Source of the DNA: a virus
DNA length: 22,191 nucleotides
Strand: one strand, 5' to 3'
IMG/VR virus record: IMGVR_UViG_3300033144_003624
Coordinates: 1-22,191 of that record
A model generated the notes under the pieces. It was not told the origin of the DNA. It searched no databases and saw nothing but the letters and a program-made list of their open reading frames with translations. How positions within the stretch are numbered: position 1 is the first letter of the stretch; each line of letters begins with the position of its first letter. Below, piece by piece: positions 15,339 through 22,191 of the stretch. The translations under genes and the position numbers were made by a program.

Positions 15339-18300
15339 ATGGCTACAGGATCAAGAACCCCTTGGGTAAGACAGCAATTTTTTGACGATAACGGCGAGCC
15401 TTTAAGCGGTGGCCTTATTGATACATATATAGCAGGATCAACTACAGCGGTAGATACTTATACAGATATAACTTTAACTACAACTCATACTAACCCTATA
15501 GTTTTAGATTCTAGGGGCGAGGTAACGATATTTTTAGACCCTTCAGTTGCTTATAAATTTGTTTTAAGAAATCCTCTGCCTAATGGTTCTGAAATTTGGA
15601 GCGAAGATAATATTACTGTGAATGGTGGGGGTGGTGTTTTAAGTTCTCTAGGTGTAATACGTTCTAACATTGCAGCTCCTGGCAATATAAATATACCTCA
15701 TGACGTAGAGACTCTTCTCCCTTTTGACAATGCAGAGTATGAGCAAAATTTAACGGGTTTTGATGGTGTTTTAAATAAATGGGTTTGCCCTCTTGATGGT
15801 GTTTACCAATTAAGGGCATCAACTGATTTTAGTTATAGCGGGCAAACTTCGGACACAGCAGCTCAAATTTATTTTAAAGTTAATGGATCATTAGTTAAAA
15901 ACCCTTTTACATGGTCGAGTGATGAGGAAACGCAAAATAACAATACGACTATTTTAGCTATTGGAACGTTGAATCTTTCTAAGAATGATGAAGTTAGTGT
16001 TTACTTTTTTGGATTTCATTCTACTCCTGCAAGTGTGATGACGGTAACGCCTACAGGTGCGAATACTTTTTGGGAAATAATTTCTTTGTCTGGTGTGCAA
16101 GGTGAAAAAGGTGATAAGGGTGATAAGGGTGATAAGGGTGATCCAGGTGTTGGAGTTCCTGGGCTTTCTGGACAGTTACTTTCATCGGATGGCGCAGGTA
16201 GTTTAAACGCTCTGGACGGTTCTGCTCCTTCACAGCCTTTAGTAGCTTACGATCCATTAAAGGGCCACATAGATGCGCCAACTACCCCATGGGGGTCTCT
16301 TGGGTTTATTGCTAGTAATGGGTTCTTATATCTTCAAAATAACGTGCAAAGCCAAATACAATTCCAAGACACGGGAGCCTCTACTTATGGAAGAATAATA
16401 GGTATTCAATCAACGGGTGATTTGGCATTTGTAACATTTAATAATGTTTCTATAGGGGCTCCATTAACTGTTGTAGGTACGACTACTTTAAATAGTGTTG
16501 TAGACCCTGGAACAGATGTAAATAAATCCATGCTTGTTAGGGATGACACTAGTGGTGAAGTTGAAAAGAGACCTATACCTTCGTCTGGTATTTCATTTGT
16601 AAACATTGGCGACTTTGATTTTGTGGCTTCTCAGTACGATGCTTTTAAAGTTGATGCTGATAATTTTATAGCTGAGGGCAAGTCCTCCATTCTTGAAATT
16701 GTTTTAACTGAGAATTCAAGCGGAACAGTTCAGGCGGTTGGACATATAATGGTAGGGTCAAACAACTCTGGAGGAGCACAAAGTTGGGTTTTAGACTGGT
16801 CTTATAATAACATTGCGCATGAATATGGTGGTAATGGTTGGCAGTTTTGGACTGGACAAGGTGGGCCTAGTACTTTTCAGTTTGGAATAACTACAGGAAC
16901 AAATTTTACAGACTATAATCTAAGCATAGCTACTATTGGGGCTCTACCTATTGGGATAAACGGGCTAGATCAAAATGTTACACCATTAGCACAAGAGTTA
17001 ACGGCTTTGTTTGATATAACAAAAAACACTGGCGGTGGTGGCTCACTCCCTAGTGACTTTATAATATGCACGACAAGCCAAGAGGTTTTAGATGCTTGGG
17101 CATTAGCTGAACAAGTTAAAACAATATTCATACATGAGGGTGCTCAAAATGTTTCCCCAACGTCTGATACTCCTATATTGGTTTATGGTAAGAATTTAGT
17201 ACTTGGATCTACCCACTCATTGATAGTTTCTTCTTTTGACCAGTTTAGCACTCTAAAATTTCAAAGTGTTGGGGATACTGCTTTTTTAAATATTAATAGA
17301 ATGTTGACAGGTTTTGCTTCTGGTTCTCCTCCTAGTGATTTAATTGAGGTTAATGGAGTTAGAATTCACTGTGATATATTCACAACACCATCAGAATACG
17401 TAATTAATGGAACCGGATACATAGGCTGGAGTAGGTTTTTAGGTGTTGCGCCTCCTATTGCTGGAACTGGGTCAACTGGTCAGGATTTTATAAACAACTG
17501 GGGATTGAAAAACACTTATAGTGCATCTAATAAGATTGAGCTTATAGATATTCTAAAACTTAAAGCCCCAAGAAAGATTATAAACGTTACGGCTGAGGTT
17601 TTTAATTTTGATGATGCTGAAATTGTAAATGATATTTATGGAATAAATGAAATATACGGGCCCATAACTGGTATTGATATTCAAACCCCTATTATCGGGT
17701 CTATACGTCTAGCCGGAGACTTATCCAACCCAACCAATGAAATAAACTTTCATAATAGCTTCTTTTCTGTGGGCTCTGGAGTTTCGGACATTATTTTAGA
17801 CAGTATTACTGTTAAGACTAAAAACTTTACTTCTGGAATTGTAAATAAAATAGGATTAGGGATTTTTATTTATGAAAATGCTGGAAGCATGCCACAGATA
17901 ACAGGAGCAACCAAACAGATTTGGGACAACACTGCAGCCGGTGGCTTCTTTTCGGAAAAGTTTTGTTATCCGGGGAGCCCTACTCAATTTTCACCGGTAA
18001 ACTACGGAAACACTGTAGGGAATGGAGGGGTTACAACTTACGCAGACTTACAACCAGCAAATGTTGGTTATTTATCTTCTTTGAATTATATAGCCGTTAT
18101 GATGTCCAGAGGAAAAACAGGGGCTTCACTTAAAAATGTTAGAGTTCATGTTAGGATATTCAATGAAACACAAGACGGCCCTTTAAGTTCTTACATAACC
18201 GATTTAAGCCTTCCAAACTCAGCAAATTGGAAAACTTTATACGATCAAGTTCAAGTATGGCCTGCAAACAACGGAGCCTCTAGACCTTACGACACTATAG

Positions 18301-18458
18301 ACAACATACTTGTAGGTCAGCCAACTGTAGGCTCTTTAGATGTTGGTTGGTTGCCTACTGATACATATTTAGCAATAACACAAATAACTTTAACAGACAG
18401 TGGATCATGGTCCGCATCTCCTCAGGGAATAACTGTAACTACTGATTGGAGTTTTTAG
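15339..18458 (+). CDS. Tail fibre with adaptor, C1q-like and collagen-like segments
   Basis: A 1039-residue probable receptor-binding protein. Residues ~9-90 repeat the adaptor of the upstream tailspike (QFFDDNGEPLSGGLIDTYIA, then NPIVLDSRGEV). Residues ~105-248 look like a C1q/TNF-type jelly roll: FDGVLNKWVCPLDGVYQLRA, IYFKVNGS, LNLSKNDEVSVYFFG and a final FWEIISLSG. Seven Gly-X-Y triplets follow (252-272; GEKGDKGDKGDKGDPG), a collagen-like trimeric helix. Then come a fibre shaft, a GGGGS-type linker near 564-570 and a long beta-rich C-terminal half. AAGGA lies nine bases before the ATG. The N-terminal adaptor suggests attachment to the same virion site as the tailspike, or to it. Confidence 0.87.
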   Translation: MATGSRTPWVRQQFFDDNGEPLSGGLIDTYIAGSTTAVDTYTDITLTTTHTNPIVLDSRGEVTIFLDPSVAYKFVLRNPLPNGSEIWSEDNITVNGGGGVLSSLGVIRSNIAAPGNINIPHDVETLLPFDNAEYEQNLTGFDGVLNKWVCPLDGVYQLRASTDFSYSGQTSDTAAQIYFKVNGSLVKNPFTWSSDEETQNNNTTILAIGTLNLSKNDEVSVYFFGFHSTPASVMTVTPTGANTFWEIISLSGVQGEKGDKGDKGDKGDPGVGVPGLSGQLLSSDGAGSLNALDGSAPSQPLVAYDPLKGHIDAPTTPWGSLGFIASNGFLYLQNNVQSQIQFQDTGASTYGRIIGIQSTGDLAFVTFNNVSIGAPLTVVGTTTLNSVVDPGTDVNKSMLVRDDTSGEVEKRPIPSSGISFVNIGDFDFVASQYDAFKVDADNFIAEGKSSILEIVLTENSSGTVQAVGHIMVGSNNSGGAQSWVLDWSYNNIAHEYGGNGWQFWTGQGGPSTFQFGITTGTNFTDYNLSIATIGALPIGINGLDQNVTPLAQELTALFDITKNTGGGGSLPSDFIICTTSQEVLDAWALAEQVKTIFIHEGAQNVSPTSDTPILVYGKNLVLGSTHSLIVSSFDQFSTLKFQSVGDTAFLNINRMLTGFASGSPPSDLIEVNGVRIHCDIFTTPSEYVINGTGYIGWSRFLGVAPPIAGTGSTGQDFINNWGLKNTYSASNKIELIDILKLKAPRKIINVTAEVFNFDDAEIVNDIYGINEIYGPITGIDIQTPIIGSIRLAGDLSNPTNEINFHNSFFSVGSGVSDIILDSITVKTKNFTSGIVNKIGLGIFIYENAGSMPQITGATKQIWDNTAAGGFFSEKFCYPGSPTQFSPVNYGNTVGNGGVTTYADLQPANVGYLSSLNYIAVMMSRGKTGASLKNVRVHVRIFNETQDGPLSSYITDLSLPNSANWKTLYDQVQVWPANNGASRPYDTIDNILVGQPTVGSLDVGWLPTDTYLAITQITLTDSGSWSASPQGITVTTDWSF
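16101..16145 (+). repeat. 9-bp tandem repeat encoding Gly-Asp-Lys triplets
   Basis: Three identical GGTGATAAG units (16110-16136) are flanked by one variant unit on each side (GGTGAAAAA, GGTGATCCA). They encode the collagen-like core of the fibre. Identical codons in each copy suggest recent slippage, so copy number may vary among related phages while the frame is kept. Confidence 0.85.
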
Positions 18459-21571: not shown

Positions 21572-21970
21572 TTAGAACGGTAAATCATCGTCTTGGATTG
21601 GTGGAGCTGCTTGCTGGGTTGGTTGTTCTTGTTGGTTAGAATTTTTTTGTCCTAACATTTGTAAAGAATTTCCAACCACTTCGGTCGTGTATCTTTTAGA
21701 ACCGCTTTGATCATCCCAGGATCTAGTTTGAATTTTGCCCTCGATATAAACCGGTGAGCCTTTTTTCAAATACTTATCCGCAATGTCTGCAAGCTTGTTC
21801 CATAAAACAATGTTTACCCATTCCGTTTTTTCTTGCTGGTTTCCTTCACGGCTTTTAAATTTTTCAGTAACTGCAATTGAAAAATTCACAACTTTTGCAG
21901 ATCCCGCCATTCTAACCTCTGGATCTTTTCCAAGGTTCCCAATTAGCATTATTTTATTTAGTGCTGCCAT
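21572..21970 (-). CDS. ssb: Single-stranded DNA-binding protein
   Basis: A 132-residue SSB that coats single-stranded DNA in replication and recombination. The OB-fold is intact: [16 protein letters not shown] (5-20), [20 protein letters not shown] (49-68), [16 protein letters not shown] (70-85) and [15 protein letters not shown] (93-107). DNA-stacking aromatics of E. coli SSB are kept: W51 for W54, W57 for F60, W85 for W88, and F38 for W40. A short Gln/Pro linker of about 18 residues ends in the acidic tip DDDLPF that recruits partner proteins. On the minus strand, AGGAACA lies ahead of the ATG at usual spacing. It is the only complete gene opposite to the late operon and probably starts the replication region. 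Confidence 0.97.
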
Positions 21971-21995
21971 TTAGATTGTTCCTGTAACTGTTTTC

Positions 21996-22001
21996 ATTAT
22001 A
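21996..22001 (-). promoter_or_regulatory. Candidate -10 box for ssb
   Basis: On the minus strand a perfect TATAAT lies 25 bases before the ssb ATG, giving a leader of about 18 bases that holds the ribosome site. No good -35 box lies 16-18 bases further upstream (ACTACC at 17), so it may need an activator or be fortuitous; ssb could also be co-transcribed with the repeat-tail gene ending 70 bases upstream. Confidence 0.35.
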
Positions 22002-22040
22002 AAGACCCTTTTAATTTAGGTAGTGTTTTTAAATTGACTT

Positions 22041-22191
22041 TTAATTATTGCCATCGCCATCGCCATAGCCATCGCCAGAGCCATCGCCAGAGCCAGAGCC
22101 ATCGCCATCGCCAGAGCCAGAGCCATCGCCATAGCCAGAGCCAGAGCCATAGCCATAGCCATAGCCATAGCCAGAGCCAGAGCCATCGCCA
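22041..22191 (-). CDS. C-terminal Gly-X (Asp/Ser/Tyr) low-complexity tail of an upstream gene, cut by the window end
   Basis: Read on the minus strand, the last 150 bases are open and end at TAA (22043-22041). They encode 49 visible residues: strictly alternating Gly with Asp, Ser or Tyr, then a final Asn-Asn. Every glycine codon is GGC; the other position is GAT, TCT or TAT. Read this way there are eight Asp, nine Ser and six Tyr repeats. The gene lies in the same direction as ssb, 70 bases upstream, so it may share an operon with it. Such Gly/Ser/Tyr tails are disordered and in other proteins can self-associate or bind nucleic acid. The folded part lies outside, so the function is unknown. 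A non-coding repeat is the alternative. Confidence 0.55.
   Translation of the reverse strand, partial: GDGSGSGYGYGYGYGSGSGYGDGSGSGDGDGSGSGDGSGDGYGDGDGNN
22050..22191. repeat. Hexanucleotide tandem array, at least 23 units
   Basis: Uninterrupted 6-bp units of the form GCCATC, GCCATA or GCCAGA run to the window end: 8, 6 and 9 copies in the 23 complete units. Only the last two or three bases vary; GCCA is invariant. The array is much richer in GC than its surroundings. Pairs of GCCAGA recur every 24 bases between units 7 and 16, so there is a higher-order period. The array's true length is not visible, and it may be where an assembly ended. Confidence 0.95.

Follow-up and report, generated by a model that had tools for sequence, protein, structure and literature searches.

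Introduction

A hexamer repeat, (KMGCCG)35, has been reported at positions 46,046-46,255 of phage phiPLPE, where it was published as a DNA repeat and was speculated to be a new kind of attachment site (PMC3391216). The repeat lies directly after phiPLPE_84, which is a gene of the DUF6948 family. The repeat belongs to the GGC-NNC codon class and is open as MSRLVNNKNGDGSGYGDG... when translated. The coding capacity, the partner gene, and the spread of the array were not recognised in that publication (PMC3391216). The phages of the proposed Ymer genus, which infect Pectobacterium, carry the same pair of a DUF6948 gene and a Gly-X (GX) gene (e.g. WCD42788 and WCD42787), and both products are annotated as 'hypothetical protein'. 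The accessible part of the genus description reports these phages to be without lysogeny and integration genes and does not mention array variation (PMC11445585). Beyond the phiPLPE publication, the literature that was searched for alternating-Gly phage proteins or DUF6948 yielded nothing relevant.

A cellular protein of comparable build is the Hfq of Acinetobacter, which carries a covalent Gly-rich tail of GGFGGQ repeats with an acidic tip, and the number of repeats matters for its function (PMC11617691). This Hfq resembles the phage pair in having an Sm-fold domain, predicted in the case of DUF6948, together with a Gly-rich and aromatic-bearing disordered repeat. However, Hfq is one host protein with the GGFGGQ unit, whereas DUF6948 and GX are two overlapping phage genes with a Gly-X unit and no demonstrated homology to it. 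By analogy, Acinetobacter Hfq may be considered the nearest functional parallel of the pair and not its homologue.

In this work, we describe an array of Gly-X codons at the end of a virus contig. The window is the whole stretch of DNA that was analysed, which is a linear virus record of 22,191 bases. With a probability of about 0.93, the window array represents the 3' end of a GX gene. The GX gene is the second of two in a conserved module, and DUF6948 is the first. DUF6948 (PF22253) is a Pfam family with no assigned function. It is the upstream partner of the GX arrays and not the array protein itself, and it is not found inside the window. The two-gene module of DUF6948 and GX is previously undescribed.

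The Gly-X array in the window

The plus strand of the window carries a late block that consists of terminase, a P22-like portal, tail proteins, DUF1353, and an M15 peptidase, and this block is followed by ssb and the array on the minus strand. A 9-base repeat at 16101-16142 (+) encodes a short collagen-like stretch, GEKGDKGDKGDKGDPG, within the tail protein at 15339-18458. The features at the array end of the window are listed below.

22041..22190, minus strand: very probable 3' end of the Gly-X (GX) gene, from the translation, the array statistics, and the frame and context of relatives
22047..22190, minus strand: hexamer array of TGGC followed by GA, TC, or TA, GGC-NNT codon class, 24 units to the contig end
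22041-22043, minus strand: stop codon of the Gly-X frame
21971..22040, minus strand: 70-nt gap that separates the stop of the Gly-X frame from the start of ssb
21572..21970, minus strand: ssb, co-directional and downstream of the array, with an OB-fold SSB domain (PF00436, E 4.5e-36); a neighbour and not a constant partner

The minus-strand translation from 22190 is GDGSGSGYGYGYGYGSGSGYGDGSGSGDGDGSGSGDGSGDGYGDGDGNN-stop, which is (Gly-X)24 followed by Asn and the stop codon, such that the protein ends in GNN-stop. The Gly codon is GGC in all 24 units and the third base of the X codon is T in all of them. The units differ only in positions 1 and 2 of the X codon, which are GA, TC, TA, and, in one unit, AA. 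The X codons are TCT (9, Ser), GAT (8, Asp), TAT (6, Tyr), and AAT (1, Asn), and D, S, and Y together make up 23 of the 24 X residues. These observations bear out the earlier note on this DNA, which had described a strict Gly-X frame on the minus strand that ends in Asn-Asn and a stop, with invariant GGC and a partner residue that changes among Asp, Ser, and Tyr. Tandem Repeats Finder reports the array with period 6, 23.7 copies, and a score of 165. A 30-base pattern of five units occurs 19 times compared to 0 expected from 100 shuffles.

The other two minus-strand frames (Ala-Met/Leu and Trp-Leu/Arg) and one plus-strand frame are likewise open across the array. The hexamers of TGGC with GA, TC, or TA are stop-free in every minus-strand frame, and the open Gly frame alone is therefore no evidence of coding. 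As judged from sequence comparison, the coding frame is fixed only by the relatives of the array and not by the window. The contig terminates within the array, and the start codon, the N-terminus, and the true repeat number are outside the window. No second contig that carries the 3' junction of this array was found by exact search.

A GX gene was recognised by a strict Gly-X run of at least 12 units with X mainly D, S, or Y, by a single Gly codon and a single X third base, by a stop codon at the array end or an in-frame C-terminal domain, and, at its 5' end, by an overlapping DUF6948 gene directly before it. The window array exhibits the run, the single codon choice, and the stop at the array end. 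Since DUF6948 itself is not in the window, the window array is assigned to the module from its own sequence, its frame, and its stop.

Relatives of the array and their spread

Viral contigs were scanned with a pattern of seven GGCKMT units and with a codon-degenerate pattern that accepts any Gly codon and either pyrimidine. Each scan returned at least 120 matches. Gly-X arrays were identified at more than 180 loci and nearly all of these are viral. Among the matches listed, the mixed Asp/Ser/Tyr arrays share the same architecture in the Gly frame, which begins with a start codon and a short peptide and continues with the array. The frame then closes with a stop codon or, in a subset of them, runs on into a conserved C-terminal domain. 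The choice of frame in the earlier note, that of a coding Gly-(Asp/Ser/Tyr) low-complexity sequence, was thus correct. Within any one array among the matches listed, Gly is written with a single codon and X with a single third base. Most of these arrays are GGC-NNT or GGC-NNC, and GGT-NNC and GGG-NNC also occur. These codon classes span flanking GC contents of 25 to 73%. The same amino acids are encoded by different hexamers, which argues for selection at the level of the protein. The strict GGC-NNT pattern was found in only 12 stretches when one genome each from 84,980 bacterial and archaeal species was scanned. On sequence grounds, GX is an undescribed hypervariable phage gene that occurs in viruses of many bacterial phyla.

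The DUF6948-GX pair is also present in isolated phages, which are those of the Pectobacterium Ymer genus, Dickeya phage Setonix, Iodobacter phage phiPLPE, Vibrio phage IKEMa6-1, and Chlorobiaceae phage CV-1-33. The Ymer-genus phages differ from the window in their GGC-NNC class and in the other genes that lie between the pair and ssb. The GX gene is annotated as 'hypothetical' in Ymer, is absent from the annotation of phiPLPE, and is called in the wrong frame (Ala-Met/Leu) in CV-1-33 (L314 3352-3597, MT192033.1, QOE32032.1). GX genes have been missed because their sequence is that of a microsatellite, where assemblies break, BLAST masks, and gene callers skip or misframe the gene.

Whole GX genes with the same ends are tandemly multiplied at some loci, with five copies in L058 (1719-2929), seven in L115 (9399-11860), and four in L085 (13285-14053). 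The pure (GGCTCT)n loci (e.g. L056, L065, L077, L080, and L084) were rejected as unrelated Ser-Gly runs that lie on other genes. The matches of arrays to Pfam 'TrAA12' and PHROG 10432/18306 were rejected as low-complexity matches. No convincing match was found in NCBIfam, and neither DUF6948 nor the domains associated with GX matched a PADLOC model at E values up to 0.1. A PLSDB call of 'BPU-1 beta-lactamase' on a hypothetical gene of 189 bases (L316 4956-5144, NZ_OY725740.1) concerns a gene that is too short and is probably a false positive.

The partner gene DUF6948 and the overlap

The gene directly upstream of the array was identified as DUF6948 in all five cases tested (E 3e-10 to 1e-19). 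A profile was then built from the upstream genes, and among arrays with at least 450 nt upstream, DUF6948 precedes the array on the same strand in 130 of 134 loci and mostly lies 2-60 nt away. In the reverse test, a Gly-X ORF is directly downstream of the gene in about 42 of the 45 DUF6948-centred loci, which had been fetched by DUF6948 similarity or from annotated phages, apart from one (a Monoglobus plasmid) that was fetched through the GX C-terminal domain. Some arrays of these loci use a wider X alphabet that includes Ala, Asn, Phe, Thr, and His. A third sample came from searches of about 1,190 bacterial genomes with the PF22253 model, where DUF6948 is present in 0.5-2% of genomes. All eight informative new loci in this sample have GX after DUF6948, and one of the arrays is nearly lost. 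No fusion of DUF6948 to GX was found among the relatives.

The GX gene usually starts just before the DUF6948 stop codon in another frame, and the overlap is exactly 13 nt in 75 of the 181 genes. The start codon is ATG in 167/181. An SD-like motif precedes it in 122/181 compared to a proportion of 0.18 for random ATG codons, where the choice of start favours SD-like motifs. The conserved overlap of start and stop is strong evidence for a translated GX gene that is coupled to DUF6948. The contig ends within the array, 56-285 nt past DUF6948, in 9 of 39 DUF6948 contigs, which is the same break as that of the window. We predict that the DUF6948 of the window phage is probably within a few hundred bases past the contig end, with its stop codon overlapping the GX start.

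The neighbours of the pair include Erf, RecE, exonucleases, SSB, NinB, resolvase, helicase, and methyltransferases, which indicate a DNA-metabolism region. The GX gene of the window sits in such a region, and its ssb neighbour is in keeping with this setting and is not the key to it. The ssb gene noticed beside the array in the earlier note is genuine, on the same strand, and 70 nt downstream, but it is not a recurrent partner. SSB is present in only 16 of 193 loci, adjoins the pair directly in only about four, and was rejected as the constant partner against 130/134 for DUF6948. The SSB-centred loci L002-L047 contain no Gly-(D/S/Y) array, and only a Gly-Val run was seen in L033.

The relatives also revise the idea of a folded protein with the array as its tail. 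A GX protein typically consists of a short N-terminal peptide (median 11 residues), the array, and the stop, and a folded C-terminal domain is present in a subset only. Neither a break of the frame nor a lack of a start codon, which the earlier note had considered, is seen in the relatives, where the frame runs unbroken into the array from a start codon a short way upstream. That note had known of no phage replication protein with such a tail, but GX genes are common in viral contigs and sequenced phages, though they are unannotated, miscalled, or labelled 'hypothetical'. The composition of Gly with Asp, Ser, and Tyr would suit condensation or multivalent binding.

Scrambling of the arrays and probable selection on composition

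The Pectobacterium phages Ymer and Amona exhibit 100% identity over 900 nt upstream of the GX gene, which includes DUF6948, and over 700 nt downstream. Their arrays, by contrast, agree only at the ends and are otherwise unlike in order and in length. The flanks of L306 and L307 are identical and their array lengths differ. One genome has two GX paralogues (L333 and L336) that have the same N-terminus and the same C-terminal domain with about 3 and at least 25 units, respectively. Several other pairs of near-identical phages keep identical arrays, and scrambling is thus not universal. Array turnover, as seen in these comparisons, is fast and not instant. Mis-joining of short reads could produce some of the differences, and it would be an incomplete explanation given the distinct arrays in separately isolated phages.

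Arrays that had been found only through DUF6948 were used to measure deviation, which is the share of units that differ from the majority base of the array. The deviation is 6.3% at the Gly third base, 5.4% at the X third base, and 58% at positions 1 and 2 of the X codon. For the arrays in general, these two positions vary in about 55%, mostly among D, S, and Y. All 26 of these arrays contain an aromatic residue, an acidic residue, and a Ser, Thr, or Asn residue. Across 164 arrays, X is Ser in 35%, Tyr in 31%, and Asp in 24%, and the dispersion of composition is only about twofold above multinomial. The order of the units is close to random, and internal duplication is above that of shuffles. 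The ratio of X to synonymous variation is 9 to 19, compared to about 1 to 3.5 in a neutral slippage simulation that is a simple sketch with no fitted model. The simplest reading of these patterns is that the arrays are homogenised and reshuffled, unit by unit, through slippage or recombination, while selection retains the residue mix.

Predicted folds of DUF6948 and the GX C-terminal domains

The model of DUF6948 is a five-stranded barrel with pLDDT 97.5. The PDB matches listed for this model are Sm/LSm or spliceosomal Sm chains, of which the best has Z 8.4 at 2.0 A over 65 residues, a Z that only just exceeds the level common small barrels attain. The listed Sm/LSm matches range from 1.6 to 2.0 A over 63-67 residues. 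Foldseek gave a modest best E of 3e-3 for the model and none below 1e-3. Among weaker viral matches are proteins that bear the names Sm-like or RNA-binding. The DUF6948 profile matched no Sm entry among PDB sequences up to E 1. G17, G21, G55, R12, R37, R38, and W42 are among the residues that are invariant or nearly so, and the conserved residues show no obvious match to the canonical Sm RNA-binding loops. The model supports a predicted Sm-like fold for DUF6948, and this support does not extend to RNA binding.

A subset of GX proteins is fused in frame to one of several conserved C-terminal domains. Domain 1 was modelled with pLDDT 95 and has no convincing match in the PDB by Foldseek (best E 0.6) or by sequence search. 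Domain type 2 is ~116 aa long with a remote match to DUF7666 (L122, L181, L219, L243, L251, and others). A motif like GSC..GV..W on the N-terminal side of the array in L106 and L188 resembles LTGSC..GR..F of domain 1 (L073 etc.), and the two segments are possibly one small domain in two positions. In Vibrio phage IKEMa6-1, tandem NTGDYSAATNTG-like repeats also occur in a further, separate protein (L312 10898-11824).

Alternative explanations

The Gly-Tyr/Gly-Ser alternation recalls the repeats of silk fibroin. GX could be a self-assembling silk- or amyloid-like protein, possibly a toxic one, with DUF6948 as its chaperone or antidote, as a fibre or a toxin-antitoxin-like pair, for which the near-constant pairing and the overlapping genes also speak. 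We consider this rather improbable, as Asp occupies about a quarter of the X positions and disfavours beta-stacking, no convincing family match was found, and the neighbours are DNA-metabolism and not structural genes. A variable binding code is unlikely but somewhat better placed. Here the order would matter, rapid reshuffling would yield new binding surfaces or decoys directed at host factors or defences, and DUF6948 would be the scaffold. Scrambling between flank-identical phages, near-random order with internal duplications, and a residue choice of D, S, and Y with little Ala would be expected of such a code. It is hard to reconcile with an array reduced to about 3 units with its flanking domains retained (L333), with the identical arrays of several near-identical phages, and with the lack of a defence link among the PADLOC models.

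The suggestion of an SSB-related role, in which the array would be a replication-protein tail for the binding or condensation of DNA coated with SSB, is improbable. It draws on the ssb 70 nt downstream in the window, on the ssb that adjoins the pair in about four other loci, and on neighbours that include Erf, RecE, exonuclease, and helicase. However, the constant neighbour is DUF6948 and not ssb (16/193 loci), and the GX frame is usually without a folded domain. Very little weight can be given to the array as a DNA-level signal for attachment, recombination, or another process with an incidental open frame, despite the attachment-site guess for the phiPLPE repeat (PMC3391216), the location among recombination genes, and the open frames of the window array. 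One amino-acid alphabet is written on different hexamers, the start-stop overlap with DUF6948 is conserved, and in-frame fusions to conserved domains exist. The attachment-site reading is further argued against by the Ymer-genus phages, which carry the array and which the accessible part of their description reports to be without lysogeny or integration genes (PMC11445585). A functionless microsatellite that expands after DUF6948 is scarcely credible. Its length changes would be microsatellite-like as observed, but many phage lineages keep the D/S/Y mix together with uniform synonymous sites, and the start overlap is conserved.

Proposed mechanism and implications

Our overall best explanation, to which we give slightly less than even odds, is the DUF6948-GX module together with a mechanism that joins an Sm-like protein to a low-complexity one. 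The module part takes up the coding frame, the partner, the overlap, the codon lock, and the scrambling that were observed in the relatives. For the mechanism itself, we tentatively infer an Sm-like DUF6948 oligomer with GX as its low-complexity partner in trans. DUF6948, as a predicted small beta-barrel of the Sm/LSm/Hfq type, would probably form a ring or a similar oligomer that acts on nucleic acid in the early phase of infection. GX, through translational coupling, would be the flexible, acidic, and Tyr-bearing partner supplied in trans. The Tyr and Asp residues of GX would engage R12, R37, R38, and W42 of DUF6948 and one another, and these contacts may lead to a multivalent, perhaps condensed, assembly. 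The function would come from composition and rough length and not from order, such that slippage or recombination could scramble the array while selection would keep aromatic, acidic, and small polar residues mixed. Kept composition with free order would also be expected of Gly-rich proteins of many functions. A further and more doubtful step is that this two-gene module of tailed phages would be a split counterpart of the Gly-tailed Sm/Hfq proteins that builds a condensate for handling RNA or ssDNA, with the composition of GX selected and its order free.

The GX array accounts for breaks in phage contigs and shows how such breaks can be recognised. The recognition of GX gives the DUF6948 family a constant partner together with a predicted Sm-like fold. 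In GX, one low-complexity sequence has also retained its composition through many rounds of rescrambling, which makes it a test bed for composition versus order.
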